Positions 826 through 11,698 of a stretch of DNA of 25,846 nucleotides are shown piece by piece. The stretch spans positions 1 to 25,846 of the IMG/VR virus record IMGVR_UViG_3300038451_000690, one strand, 5' to 3'. This stretch comes from a virus. The first letter of the stretch is position 1. Each line of letters starts with the position of its first letter. Made by a program: the position numbers and the translations under genes. The notes under the pieces were generated by a model, which saw only the letters and a list, made by a program, of their open reading frames with translations, did no database searches and was not told where the DNA came from.

Positions 826-1320
826 ATGGCCAAGCCGACAAAATACAAAGAGGACATGCCCGCGCGGGCTGAAAAAATGGCTCGGGCGGGCAATACCATG
901 GCAAAGATCTCCAGGGCTTTCGGGGTCCAGAGGGACACGCTGGACAACTGGGTGCAGCAAAGGGGCAAACTTCGAGAGGCAATCGAGCGCGGCCGCACCC
1001 ACTTTCGTTCCGAGTGCGCGGAGAAAAACCTCTTCAAGCGGGTCGAAGGCTACTTCTATGAGGAAAAAACCGAGGAACTGCGCAAAGTCGAAGAACTTGA
1101 CCCGATAACCGGCAGGACTGTCATCGCCGAAAAGCCGGTCGTGGTTAAAACAGTCCGTAAACATGTGCCGCCGGATACGAGGGCTGTGATCTTCGCGGTA
1201 AAGTGTCTCATGCCTGATAAATACAAAGACAGGCAGGAGGTGCAAATATCCGGGTTGACCGAATTTGTGACCGAACTTCAGGAGGCCCGAAAGCGTGCGT
1301 CGAACAGCCAATCTTCCTAA
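826..1320 (+). CDS. Terminase small subunit
   Basis: This 164-residue protein would recognise the phage DNA for packaging and load the large terminase. I chose ATG 826 because CGAGGGG lies just upstream and the protein then opens directly on its DNA-binding domain. Residues about 10-45 form a helix-turn-helix (ARAGNTMAKISRAFGV followed by a DTLDNWVQQ recognition helix), typical of small terminases. Residues 60-150 are charged and helical, which fits the oligomerisation part. The end overlaps the large terminase gene by 26 bases, and the AGGAGG for that gene lies inside this one, so the two are translationally coupled. No pac/cos site can be assigned from the sequence alone. Confidence 0.85.
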   Translation: MAKPTKYKEDMPARAEKMARAGNTMAKISRAFGVQRDTLDNWVQQRGKLREAIERGRTHFRSECAEKNLFKRVEGYFYEEKTEELRKVEELDPITGRTVIAEKPVVVKTVRKHVPPDTRAVIFAVKCLMPDKYKDRQEVQISGLTEFVTELQEARKRASNSQSS

Positions 1321-2776
1321 GAAACTCGCAGCCGATCTTGGCAAATACGCCTTGGACCCGTTGGGGTGGGTGCTCTATGCGTTTGGTTGGGGCAAGGGCG
1401 AACTGGCCGGCCCCATCGGCCCTGACGAATGGCAGAAGGAATTCCTCGCCGGGCTGGGGCAAAAGCTGAAAGACGGCGCCGGGGCCGGAGCAATTATCCG
1501 CGACGCTACAGCAAGTGGCCACGGAATCGGAAAATCCGCCCTTGTGGCATGGCTCATCCTTTGGGCCGTCTCAACATTCCCAGACACAAAGGGCGTCGTT
1601 ACGGCAAATACCGAGACGCAGCTTAAAACCAAGACATGGTCGGAGCTTGCCAAGTGGTACCGGCTTTGCTGGTTTGCAAAAGAGATGTTCGATTTAACGG
1701 CGACGGCGATCTTTTCCAGGGTGCCGGAGCACGACCGCACCTGGCGGGTCGATCAGGTCGCGTGGTCCGAGCGAAATACCGAGGCCTTCGCGGGCCTGCA
1801 CAACAAGGGACGGCGCATTCTTTTGATATTCGATGAGGCAAGCGCCATTCCGGACGTCATCTGGGAGGTCTCCGAGGGGGCCCTGACCGATGAGGGGACG
1901 GAGATCATCTGGTGTGTATTCGGAAACCCGACCAGGAACACGGGCAGGTTCAAGGACTGCTTTACGGGCAAAACGCGCAATCGCTGGACTACGAGGCAGA
2001 TCGACTCCCGCATGAGCCGGTTTACGAATAAAGAGCAGATCGAGCAGTGGGTCCAGGATTACGGGATCGATTCGGATTTCGTGAAGGTGCGAGTGCGCGG
2101 TATGTTTCCGGCCCTGTCGGCGAGGCAGTTCATAAGCGTTGTGGACGTGGATGCCGCTTTTGGCAGGTTTTTAAGGGATGAGCAGTACAGCTTCGCGCCG
2201 AAGATAGTCTCGGTCGACCCGGCCTGGGAAGGCGACGACGAACTGGTGATAGGTCTTCGGCAGGGGCTCGCGTTCAGCATTAAGCGGGTCATTCCTAAAA
2301 ACGATAATGATATGCAGGTTGCTAACATTATTGCGCAGCTCGAAGACACGGAAAGTGCGGATGCGGTCTTTATCGATGCCGGCTACGGCACGGGAATCGT
2401 CTCCGCGGGAAGGACAATGGGCAGGAACTGGCAGCTCGTCTGGTTTTCCGGAGAATCATCCGATCCGGGGTATCTCAACAAACGCGCCGAGATGTGGGGC
2501 AACATGCGCGACTGGTTGAAATCGGGCGGAGCGATACCCAGGGATACGGCCCTGTACAATGACCTGATCGGACCTGAGACCGTCGGCAGGATGGACGGCA
2601 AGATCCAACTCGAAGCCAAGGCGGACATGAAGAAACGCGGGCTCAAGTCTCCAAACCGGGCCGATTGTCTGGCGATATCGTTTGCATATCCCGTAAGCGC
2701 CAAGATCAACCGGCTCCGCAAACCCGTTTTCGCCCTGACTGAGTACGATCCGTTGGCAAATAGTTTTGAGTTTTGA
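1295..2776 (+). CDS. Terminase large subunit (packaging ATPase and nuclease)
   Basis: This 493-residue motor pumps DNA into the prohead and cuts the concatemer. The start is GTG 1295, with GGAGG at 1281-1285, inside the end of the small subunit gene. The N-terminal ATPase has a P-loop SGHGIGKS (residues 74-81) and a Walker B ILLIFDEAS (175-183) with catalytic Glu181. The C-terminal RNase H-like nuclease shows three acidic positions in the right order: D308 in VSVDPA, D361 in FIDAG and D457 in NRADCLA. Length and motif order are normal, so it should be active. Oddly, the last residues (SFEF) are encoded by the repeat AGTTTTGAGTTTTGA, which continues into the spacer, suggesting the original C-terminus was replaced. 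Confidence 0.95.
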   Translation: MRRTANLPKKLAADLGKYALDPLGWVLYAFGWGKGELAGPIGPDEWQKEFLAGLGQKLKDGAGAGAIIRDATASGHGIGKSALVAWLILWAVSTFPDTKGVVTANTETQLKTKTWSELAKWYRLCWFAKEMFDLTATAIFSRVPEHDRTWRVDQVAWSERNTEAFAGLHNKGRRILLIFDEASAIPDVIWEVSEGALTDEGTEIIWCVFGNPTRNTGRFKDCFTGKTRNRWTTRQIDSRMSRFTNKEQIEQWVQDYGIDSDFVKVRVRGMFPALSARQFISVVDVDAAFGRFLRDEQYSFAPKIVSVDPAWEGDDELVIGLRQGLAFSIKRVIPKNDNDMQVANIIAQLEDTESADAVFIDAGYGTGIVSAGRTMGRNWQLVWFSGESSDPGYLNKRAEMWGNMRDWLKSGGAIPRDTALYNDLIGPETVGRMDGKIQLEAKADMKKRGLKSPNRADCLAISFAYPVSAKINRLRKPVFALTEYDPLANSFEF

Positions 2777-2850
2777 GTTTCCAGTTTTTAGTGAAAATCG
2801 GGAACTCGAAACCCTTACGACTCCAACTAAAAACTAACAACTAAAAACTC
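2762..2850. repeat. AGTTTTGAGTTTT repeat with inverted copy (spacer hairpin)
   Basis: The end of the large terminase gene and the following spacer contain AGTTTTGAGTTTTGAGTTT (2762-2780) and CAGTTTTTAGT, followed by inverted copies ACTAAAAACT (about 2826-2835 and 2840-2849). The arms can form an imperfect AT-rich hairpin. The same 19-bp word recurs in opposite orientation (18 of 19 bases) at 3088-3106, inside the portal gene. Confidence 0.75.
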
Positions 2851-2864
2851 GAACGGAGTGAGCA

Positions 2865-3071
2865 ATGTGCTTTTCATCCCCATCGGTACCAGCTCCTGTC
2901 CCGGCCCCGGCGCCTCCGCCGAGCTTGCCGGACAGCGGCGTGCAGAACGCGGGTGCAAATCAGCGCAACCTCGCGGCAATGGCTTACGGGGCGAGCTCGA
3001 CCATTTTAACCGGGCCTCAGGGCTTGCAGACACCGGCGAGCACCACCAACAAAAGCTTGCTGGGGGGCTAA
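2865..3071 (+). CDS. Small conserved phage protein next to the portal
   Basis: This 68-residue protein starts at ATG 2865 after GGAGTG. The first 25 residues are rich in Pro and Ala (PAPVPAPAPPPSLP) and begin MCFSSPS. The C-terminal half carries SSTILTGPQGL and ends KSLLGG. Small proteins with a Pro-rich start and an SSTILTG ... LLG ending are common beside the portal gene in podoviruses. Their function is not established; a minor virion or ejected protein is a reasonable guess. The gene is bracketed by inverted copies of the AAAACTC repeat, one at the end of the terminase gene and one at the start of the portal gene, and its stop lies one base before the portal start. Confidence 0.75.
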   Translation: MCFSSPSVPAPVPAPAPPPSLPDSGVQNAGANQRNLAAMAYGASSTILTGPQGLQTPASTTNKSLLGG

Positions 3072-3072
3072 G

Positions 3073-4779
3073 TTGACTCAAAACTCAAGACTCAAAACTC
3101 AAAACTCTTCCGAGCCGATCAAAGAGCTTCGGGGCTATCTTGACGGGCGCATGGCGGGCTTGAGGTCCGAGCGCTGGTCCTACTGGCAGCATTGGCGCCA
3201 ACTCTCTGACTTTATTTTACCCAGGCGCGGACGGTTCCTGCAGACGCCCAACCAGGCCACAAAGGGCGATCCCGTTGGGTCGAGGATTATCAACGAGACG
3301 CCGACCCTGGCCGCAAGAACACTATCGGCGGGATTGATGGCGGGGCTGACATCCCCCGCCCGGCCCTGGTTCAGGTTATCTATTCGGGACATGGATGTTT
3401 CTGATAATACCCCGGTGAGGTTGTGGCTGGATGAAGTTACTAAGCGGCTTCTGACGGTCTTATCCCAGAGCAACGCCTACAACGCCCTGCACGTGATCTA
3501 CGAAGAACTGGGGGTGTTCGGAACCGGCTGTGTGCTCATCGAGGAGGATTACGAGGATGTCGTTCGCTGTCAGACTTTGACGGTGGGAGAATATTATCTG
3601 GCAAGCTCCGGACGAAACGAAATCGATACGCTGTACCGAGAATACGTACTCACTGTTGCTCAAATCGTTGATCGATTCGGCGTCGAGGCCTGCAGCCGGA
3701 CCGTCCAAAGCCTTTTTGAGTCCAGACAGCACGACAAGGAAATAAACGTCTGCCAGGCCATTGAGCCAAACGACGACCGGGCGCCCCAGATACCGGGCTT
3801 GAAAGGCCGCAAGTTCCGGTCTGTCGTCTGGGAGTGGGGACAAAGCCAGGATAAGGTTTTAGAGCTAAGGGGCTACCATGAACAACCCTTTTGCGCGCCA
3901 CGGTGGCACGTCATCGGGAATGATTCTTACGGCAGATCCCCCGGCATGGAATGTCTGGGCGCATCCAAGATGCTGCAGACCCTCGAGCGCAGGACTGCCC
4001 AGGCAATCGACAAGGTGCTCAATCCTCCGATGGTGGCCGATGTTTCGATGAAAAACGAGCCTGCATCGCTTTTGCCCGGCGGGGTCACTTATGTTGCCAA
4101 CCTTGCGCAAAGCGGATTTAAGCCGGCCTATGAAGTTCCGCCGGATATCCGGGGAGCTGAGGAAAAGATCGCAAAGGCCGAGGAAAGGATCAAAAGCACA
4201 TTTTTTGCCGATCTCTTCCTGATGATAAGCCAGCTCGACACGGTGAGGACCGCAACCGAGATCATCGAGCGAAAGCAGGAAAAGATGCTGATGCTCGGGC
4301 CGTTTCTGGAAAGGTCTCAGTTCGAGCTTATCAATCCGTTCATCGAGCGCGTCTTCGCGGTGATGTACCGGGCGCGGCTTATCCCTTCGGCTCCGCGCGA
4401 AATCATGGGCAGGGCCCTCGATATCGAATGTGTGTCAACGCTGGCCGATGCGCAGAAGTCAACGGCAACGACCGGCATAGAGAGGCTCGTTGCATTCGTG
4501 GGGAACCTTGCCGCGGCCAGACCCGAAACCCTCGATAACATAGATTTCGATGAAACGGTGCGCGAGTACGCGGACCTCATCGGGGTTACGCAGAAACTCA
4601 TTGTGGCCCAGCAGCAAAGGGACCTCATCAGGAAGCAGCGTGCTCAGCAGATGCAGGCCCAACAGCAGGCGCAAATGGCGATGGCGGGGGTGCAGGGGGC
4701 AAAGACCCTCAGCGAAACAGACGTTGGCGGCGGGCAGAATGCGCTGGCCAAGATGCTTGGGACGGGGCAGGCAGCATAA
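3073..4779 (+). CDS. Portal (head-to-tail connector) protein
   Basis: This 568-residue protein forms the dodecameric ring at one capsid vertex through which DNA enters and leaves. It is of the T7 gp8 head-to-tail connector type. Signature stretches are FILPRRGRFL (about 48-57), NETPTLAARTLSAGLMAGL with SPARPWFRL just after it, and the helical C-terminal part with a Gln-rich tail (MQAQQQAQMAMAG). The start is TTG 3073, two bases after the previous stop and close to a G-run. The family normally starts only a few residues before the LRGYLDGRMAGLRSERW helix, so this start is plausible. The first 12 residues (TQNSRLKTQNS) are encoded by the AAAACTC repeat and are probably not ancestral. Confidence 0.93.
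   Translation: MTQNSRLKTQNSSEPIKELRGYLDGRMAGLRSERWSYWQHWRQLSDFILPRRGRFLQTPNQATKGDPVGSRIINETPTLAARTLSAGLMAGLTSPARPWFRLSIRDMDVSDNTPVRLWLDEVTKRLLTVLSQSNAYNALHVIYEELGVFGTGCVLIEEDYEDVVRCQTLTVGEYYLASSGRNEIDTLYREYVLTVAQIVDRFGVEACSRTVQSLFESRQHDKEINVCQAIEPNDDRAPQIPGLKGRKFRSVVWEWGQSQDKVLELRGYHEQPFCAPRWHVIGNDSYGRSPGMECLGASKMLQTLERRTAQAIDKVLNPPMVADVSMKNEPASLLPGGVTYVANLAQSGFKPAYEVPPDIRGAEEKIAKAEERIKSTFFADLFLMISQLDTVRTATEIIERKQEKMLMLGPFLERSQFELINPFIERVFAVMYRARLIPSAPREIMGRALDIECVSTLADAQKSTATTGIERLVAFVGNLAAARPETLDNIDFDETVREYADLIGVTQKLIVAQQQRDLIRKQRAQQMQAQQQAQMAMAGVQGAKTLSETDVGGGQNALAKMLGTGQAA
3077..3108. repeat. ACTCAAA tandem repeat at the 5' end of the portal gene
   Basis: ACTCAAA-type units are repeated about five times. 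Bases 3088-3106 match the reverse complement of 2762-2780 at 18 of 19 positions. The repeat lies within the coding sequence and supplies the N-terminal residues of the portal protein. Confidence 0.8.
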
Positions 4780-10572: not shown

Positions 10573-10577
10573 AAAGA

Positions 10578-10644
10578 GGTCGCGAGTCCCGAGTCGGCTG
10601 GTCGCGGGTCAAAAGCAGACCCGAGACCCGAAACCCGCAGACTC
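10578..10644. repeat. GAGTC/GACCCG palindromic repeat in the scaffold-capsid spacer
   Basis: The spacer contains GAGTCCCGAGTC followed by GCGGGTC (10604-10610), then GACCCGAGACCCGAAACCCGC and GACTC (10640-10644). CGGGTC (10605-10610) pairs with GACCCG (10618-10623) over a 7-base loop, and the outer GAGTC/GACTC pair could extend the structure. Several alternative pairings exist because the GACCC unit is repeated. Confidence 0.7.
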
Positions 10645-10660
10645 TTGAAAGGAGTGAAAG

Positions 10661-11698
10661 ATGTCCACAATAGGACCTGCCGCGTTAACCCTTATGGATT
10701 GGGCAAAGCGGATCGAAGATGACGGCAAAATTGCCCAGATCATCAACCTTTTGTCCCAGACCAATGAAATCCTCGACGACATGCTCTGGATAGAGGGAAA
10801 CCTCCCCACGGGGCACAAGACGACCGTTCGCACCGGACTTCCCCAGGCCTACTGGCGCCTGCTAAACGTCGGCGTCCCGACCGGGAAATCCACAACGGCG
10901 CAGATCACCGAGACCTGCGGTCACATGGAAACCTTTTCCGATATCGACGAGATGCTGATCGAGCTTGCCGGAGATAACAAAGCCCTTCGGCTCTCCGAAG
11001 AACTTGCCTTCCTCGAGGGCATGAACCAGCAGATGGCGCAGACCATCTTCTATAACTCCATCACTTCGACCCCGGCGGCCTTCATGGGACTGGCGCCCAG
11101 ATACCCGAGCATAACGGCTGCGACCGCTCAGACCGCCAATAACGTGATCGACGCGGGCGGAACGGGTGGCACCAACACCTCTATATGGCTCATCTTCTGG
11201 GGTCCTATGTCCGTTCACGGGATATTCCCCAAAGGCATGAAGTCCGGTTTCCAGCAGATAGATCTGGGCAAACAGCAAAAGCTCGACGGCTCCAATAACG
11301 TCTATTACGTGTGGCGAAGCCAGTTCAAGTGGGACGCCGGCCTTGTTGTAAAAGACTGGAGATACGCGGTCAGGATCGGCAACATCGACGTGACACAGCT
11401 CTCAGGCGGAACACCTCCGAACTTGATCAACCTCATGATCCGCGCCATCCACAGGCTGCCGACCCAGCCCGCACGGGCCGGAAACGTACAGAAAAGCGAT
11501 GCCCCGCAGCTCACCATGGGCAGGGCGGCTTTTTATGCGAACAGGTCGGTTACTACCTGGCTCGATATCCAGGCGTTGAACAAGCAAAACGTTCTGCTCC
11601 AGATGAACGAGTTCGACGGAAAGCCGGTGACCAGTTTCAGGGGCATTCCCATCAGGACCTGCGACCAACTTTTGAACAACGAGGCGCGGATTATCTAA
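10661..11698 (+). CDS. Major capsid protein
   Basis: This 345-residue protein is the main shell subunit, presumably of HK97 fold. It starts at ATG 10661 behind a strong GAAAGGAGTG. Family features run the whole length: LTLMDWAKRIEDDGKIAQIINLL, the segment ILDDMLWIEGNLPTGHKTTVRTGLP, WRLLNVGVPTGKSTTAQITETCG, FLEGMNQQMAQTIFY, and FMGLAPRYPSI. It corresponds to the capsid proteins of BPP-1-like podoviruses, where the gene sits between scaffold and Bbp16-type cement genes, exactly as here. Length is normal and no frame damage is visible. The unusually structured spacers before and after the gene may tune its expression. Confidence 0.92.
   Translation: MSTIGPAALTLMDWAKRIEDDGKIAQIINLLSQTNEILDDMLWIEGNLPTGHKTTVRTGLPQAYWRLLNVGVPTGKSTTAQITETCGHMETFSDIDEMLIELAGDNKALRLSEELAFLEGMNQQMAQTIFYNSITSTPAAFMGLAPRYPSITAATAQTANNVIDAGGTGGTNTSIWLIFWGPMSVHGIFPKGMKSGFQQIDLGKQQKLDGSNNVYYVWRSQFKWDAGLVVKDWRYAVRIGNIDVTQLSGGTPPNLINLMIRAIHRLPTQPARAGNVQKSDAPQLTMGRAAFYANRSVTTWLDIQALNKQNVLLQMNEFDGKPVTSFRGIPIRTCDQLLNNEARII

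Follow-up and report, generated by a model that had tools for sequence, protein, structure and literature searches.

The window analysed here is the whole 25,846-nt stretch of IMG/VR record IMGVR_UViG_3300038451_000690 (positions 1 to 25,846). On its plus strand lie the gene for the terminase large subunit (1295..2776; PHROG 2, E 7.4e-42; PHROG 5902, E 1.3e-63), the gene for a conserved small protein of 68 aa, PHROG 831 (2865..3071; E 1.6e-19), which has the same position in relatives, the gene for the portal or head-tail connector (3073..4779; PF12236, E 2.8e-161; PHROG 332), for which a TTG start was inferred, and the gene for a major capsid protein of the GP7 family (10661..11698; PF20911, E 5.9e-130). 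The order of terminase, PHROG 831, PF12236 portal and GP7 capsid is that of an Autographivirus- or podovirus-like head-tail connector phage.

Three blocks of AAAACTC-type heptamers, at 2759-2795, 2823-2853 and 3073-3110, occupy the terminase-portal region, where TRF detected period-7 arrays at 2762-2792, 2825-2849 and 3076-3107. The original prediction had described two inverted 19-nt copies matching at 18 of 19 positions, and we recovered them as AGTTTTGAGTTTTGAGTTT at 2762-2780 (plus strand) and again at 3088-3106 (minus strand) with one mismatch; within three mismatches, AGTTTTGAGTTTTGAGTTT was matched six times in the window and not once in 100 dinucleotide shuffles. The pair formed by the outer blocks (2759-2795 and 3073-3109; 37 nt, 84% complementary) is the top-ranked inverted repeat of the window. 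This pair is real. The prediction had overlooked the block at 2823-2853, which is a nearer inverted partner of the first block than the third array is. The left arm, (AGTTTTG)n at 2759..2795 (+), and the right arm, (AACTAAA)n at 2823..2853 (+), which is inverted to 2765-2792 and is followed closely by the ribosome-binding region (GGAG) of the PHROG 831 gene, form an inverted pair separated by 33 nt in the terminase/831 gap. For the third array, (ACTCAAA)n at 3073..3110 (+), no complementary arm was found within 200 bases; its ending, AAAACTCTTC, is also present at elements of a bacterial genome, G006, described below.

A second element of like kind (10573..10650, +), in which the heptamers are degenerate and inverted (CGAGTCC/CGGGTCA ... 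GACCCGA), fills the gap between the gene at the scaffold position and the major capsid gene at its right flank, and contains a period-7 array at 10615-10640. The idea that CGAACGGAGTGAG marks the element's right-hand border was rejected, as it corresponds to the ribosome-binding region, with a similar AACGGAGTGA preceding capsid starts; it is absent from 1 Mb of G006, and its lone unrelated match, in L210, is coding sequence that resembles it by chance. Two near-identical contigs of the same phage from other metagenomes, L006 and L037, carry identical arrays in the terminase-portal region, which argues against an assembly artefact.

Array-encoded ends of the terminase and portal genes

The open reading frames confirmed the prediction that the first copy encodes the terminase end SFEF and the second the portal start TQNSRLKTQNS. 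The terminase ends in EYDPLANSFEF, its last codons, S-F-E-F, and the TGA stop at 2774-2776 being supplied by the left arm. The first residues of the portal, MTQNSRLKTQNSS (TQNSRLKTQNS), are read from the third array after the TTG at 3073, upstream of which no in-frame ATG, GTG or TTG was found before the previous stop. The terminase tail is shorter than in several relatives, and in several of them a second [DE]YDP-type motif follows EYDPL (L009, with EYDPLEGAQASSRAQIQTDYNPF, and L020, L013 and L010); early terminase ends without an AAAACTC array also occur in L007, L031 and L041. Conservation of the portal among relatives begins at about residue 16-19. The changes in the terminase tail and at the portal start thus both sit in variable ends.

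Among the relatives compared, the terminal residues of the window are shared with L006 and L037 only, so the residues at both ends are unique to this phage. The arrays overlap both ends, so the earlier suggestion of repeats tolerated at the ends of essential genes proved largely right: repeat DNA can end up as the terminal codons, at either end, of an essential phage gene.

Similar overlaps were noticed elsewhere. AAAACTC-type heptamers overlap the start of the terminase gene at L088:7227-7249 and L025:2494-2522, the former in a prophage of G006 and a parallel to the portal start of the window, and translated GGACGGA-type heptamers lie within the scaffold-position gene at L018:8875-8946, L023:6700-6723 and L088:15690-15713.

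Array words in phage spacers and bacterial genomes

When the window genes were mapped onto the related phages of this bog group, the flanking genes were collinear and the 7-8-bp words in the terminase/831, 831/portal and scaffold/capsid gaps varied from phage to phage. In the 831/portal gap the words include AAAACTC (the window, within the portal start), GAAGCAG-type, GGTAATA, GGAGCGG-type, AAAAGTC and an 8-bp GCGCGAAG-type, together with AGGACTG in L018, TAGGCTG in L023 and CACGAAGG in L013, which were read by eye. At least seven words were found in the scaffold/capsid gap: GAGACCC (the window), GAAGCAT-type, GTGAACA, GGGGTAA, GGACTGA, AGGCTGA and an 8-bp GTGAACAG-type; in L009, L015, L022, L031 and L034 this gap is 29-42 nt long and holds no array. 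L010 and L014 are 91% identical over 4.5 kb: one carries a GAAGCAT-type and the other a GTGAACA-type word in the scaffold/capsid gap, between flanks that are 94% and 90% identical, and the 8-bp arrays upstream of their PHROG 831 genes differ by one unit. L012 is mosaic in the same scaffold/capsid gap, its left arm resembling that of L014 and its right arm that of L010. The word swap, the unit gain and the mosaic arms point to slippage and exchange within spacers.

The gaps hold repeats of other kinds as well. In L010 and L018, the scaffold/capsid and 831/portal gaps are occupied by inverted repeats of greater length, of the ACCACGGAGACACGGAGAACACAGAGG / CGCAGAGACGCAGAG type. A 12-13-bp array, TTGCCGYTTCTRKT, lies at 408-465 of the window, upstream of terS, and in the terminase/831 gap of L010, L015-L019, L021, L023-L025, L027 and L031, with a copy (L155) in the G006 sample; a -10-like sequence (e.g. 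CATAATAT) often follows it by about 30 nt, and the array is a candidate tandem operator for a promoter.

The bacterial side was approached through the portal. When a portal alignment was run against bacterial genomes, prophages were identified in assemblies of Deltaproteobacteria/Syntrophobacteraceae, among them prophage L088 (portal 84% identical) in G006 (bog_1154), a 7.1-Mb draft that may mix strains and represents the nearest prophage host. G006 contains 40 matches to AACTCAAAACTCAAAACTC at no more than two mismatches, and at this threshold none was found in six other prophage-bearing genomes; at no more than one mismatch, 24 of 25 other genomes of the family had no match and the remaining one had two, each with one mismatch. 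For this AAAACTC search the reversed-pattern control was uninformative because the word reads almost identically when reversed. The copies in G006 are 50-150 bp long, with a left arm (AGTTTTK)n and a right arm (AACTMAA)n, many as hairpins, and several end in GAAGAGTTTTGAG/CTCAAAACTCTTC, as does the third array of the window; other 7- and 8-bp words are present in the same genome. The predicted dispersed repeat family therefore exists in the genome of the nearest prophage host, and G006-like bacteria are the presumed host of this phage.

The period itself is specific. With a stricter threshold of 3.5 copies at 80% self-match, the 182 kb of related phage contigs (metagenomic fragments, near-duplicates of which were grouped by hand) held 27 arrays of period 7 against 0 in Markov sequence, and 0-4 at periods 9-11, 15 and 16. 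In 1.0 Mb of G006, from which N runs and low-complexity sequence were excluded, the counts were 46 against 0 for period 7, 30 against 1 for period 8 and at most 2 for periods 9-13. At 3.0 copies, 73 of 122 period-7 arrays lay outside ORFs (gene calls being simple ORFs), compared with about 17% of that sequence. The density of arrays differs between genomes, since small samples of G003, G001, G008 and G012 gave 4, 0, 7 and 0 period-7 arrays, respectively.

The words differ between genomes as well. In a phylum sample of 247 genomes, in which genomes of other families were sampled only, a triple GGACTGA word was counted 48 times in G006 and turned up in 8 others; GTGAACA occurs in 10 of the 247. 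The reversed control word of GGACTGA, AGTCAGG, is absent from G006 and frequent elsewhere, with up to 53 repeats in other genomes of the Desulfobacterota group (e.g. 53 in G171). Judging from these AGTCAGG repeats, heptamer arrays with other words appear to be widespread, and each genome seems to have its own words.

Origin of the arrays

We consider it probable that the elements are heptamer hairpins of the host type that grew by slippage and were exchanged within spacers, and that the recoding of gene ends is a by-product that is tolerated. The intergenic spacers of a wetland, Syntrophobacteraceae-type host and of its phages would be filled with short inverted arrays whose words are 7 bp, or also 8 bp, long; the length of an array would change by whole units through slippage, and recombination with a copy at another place, in the host or in a phage, would replace the content of a spacer by another word. 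The arrays would have no dedicated function, and selection would confine them to spacers and dispensable gene ends. At the present locus, one hairpin in the terminase/831 gap overlaps the tail of the terminase, the TGA stop being part of the forward word, and a single array in the stop-free orientation would have taken the place of the variable codons with which the portal begins; translation of the portal would start from a TTG that follows the G-run closing the PHROG 831 gene. Slippage plus exchange is what we infer from the comparisons of spacers. Against this reading, some hairpins fold far better than shuffled sequences (z to -5.25) and arrays recur in the same gaps, so they could have a function.

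A bolder proposal, which we think unlikely, is that a process recognizing the length of the unit (7 or 8 bp) and blind to its sequence writes, copies and exchanges inverted arrays, with each spacer acting as a slot that is filled from a shared vocabulary.

Alternatively, the arrays could be functional RNA hairpins, serving as spacer elements of the late operon and adjusting the stability of mRNA or the translation of PHROG 831, portal and capsid, with the structure kept and the sequence free. Inverted arms built from unrelated words at the same spacers, and the position of the elements just upstream of ribosome-binding sites, are consistent with this, as are the strong predicted folds (z against shuffles) of L018 (-4.66), L023 (-4.51), L025 (-3.56), L007 (-3.64) and the host copy L140 (-5.25), and that of the scaffold/capsid element of the window (10573..10650; -30.1 kcal/mol, z -2.58). 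The first element of the window gave a z of -2.33, and its minimum-energy fold leaves the two arms not cleanly paired. However, folding is weak in L015 (-0.18), L009 (-1.05) and the terminase/831 gap of L010 (-1.40), the third array of the window is unpaired and folds more poorly than shuffles (z +1.62), and several relatives have no array at the same gap. On these predictions a selected RNA hairpin is possible, and we judge the functional reading as a whole unlikely. A different role for the hairpin, as an orientation-independent stop in all frames, was not supported: for paired arms, the left arm held more stops than the right in 18 cases, fewer in 5 and an equal number in 7, but when all arrays next to the 3' ends of genes were taken together the count was 17 against 13.

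Movement of the arrays as REP- or MITE-type mobile elements by a host enzyme seems very unlikely to us. Dispersed copies in G006 and in phages, and the ends GAAGAGTTTTGAG...CTCAAAACTCTTC, which recur in several of the host copies, would fit such elements, but the many unrelated words have only their period in common, so no enzyme could recognize one sequence; words in the same gap differ between phages in place of a conserved element sequence, the ends are not constant across words, a paired arm within 150-200 bases is missing from most arrays, and the unit-wise change in length fits slippage.

The original prediction also offered the outer arrays as borders of a small mobile cassette, that is, as terminal inverted repeats that brought in the PHROG 831 gene; the geometry of the outer pair suits this idea, which is nevertheless almost certainly wrong, as nearly all relatives, repeat-free ones included, have the gene between terminase and portal (in L020, L036 and L041 it is in place with no surrounding repeats), the first block has its nearer inverted partner at 2823-2853, and the terminase/831 and 831/portal gaps vary independently, some relatives holding a different repeat in just one of them.

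Relation to known heptamer repeats

Heptamer repeats have long been noted in bacteria, and we know of no accepted origin or role for them. The phages compared here provide a natural allelic series, in which one spacer between flanking genes that are more than 90% identical holds unrelated words, extra units or no array, and questions about the origin of heptamers, their movement between host and phage, and hairpin versus spacing become directly testable.

Intergenic TAACTGA heptamers were described in marine Beggiatoaceae, Cyanobacteria and Bacteroidetes (MacGregor 2015, PMC4679880), where words read forward close every frame and terminate genes, and words read in reverse are free of stops and tolerated at the termini of proteins. 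The arrays described here share with them a 7-nt unit in two to six copies and a mostly intergenic location near start codons; as in intergenic heptameric repeats generally, the tandem 7-nt unit is over-represented, dispersed in a bacterial genome and mainly intergenic. The TAACTGA system, however, consists of one word, almost only in direct repeats (one indirect repeat in the genome), on bacterial chromosomes, whereas here there are many words, often in inverted pairs, in phages as well as in the host, and differing words in the same spacer of close relatives. TAACTGA predominates in BOGUAY, while G006 and single phages hold several words each, and we therefore regard the present arrays as a variant of the intergenic heptamer kind and not as a member of the TAACTGA type.

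In Geobacter metallireducens (PMC2700814), tandem heptanucleotide 'class 3' repeats of consensus MTYCTGA, defined by five tandem units recognized by IHF/HU, are depicted as a loop between two strands, and a GGGACCG family was also described. These repeats, too, come from a Deltaproteobacterium, have heptanucleotide units, are dispersed in intergenic and intragenic positions, and are partly drawn as hairpins. They were read as binding sites of global regulators or as RNA elements with a fixed consensus, whereas the word is interchangeable here; MTYCTGA differs from AAAACTC, and the two are set apart by consensus and description only. The GGGAATC / GGGGAYT heptamers of Xanthomonas and Nostoc (PMC4692102) are likewise intergenic, vary in length and sequence between close relatives and include some inverted pairs, but they are G-rich and quadruplex-forming, and the AAAACTC word is neither. 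The REP and GTAG-CGTC palindromes are also short, dispersed and intergenic; REPs are marked by a conserved sequence family and a tag at one end (PMC3733652), neither of which was seen here.

A literal sequence search of open-licence papers for the words found here returned unrelated papers only. The exchange of words in the same spacer of related phages is unreported in the portions of PMC4679880, PMC2700814 and PMC4692102 available to us, all of them open-licence literature outside which prior reports may exist. Intergenic heptamers in bacteria were already known; their swapping between the spacers of phages is new here.
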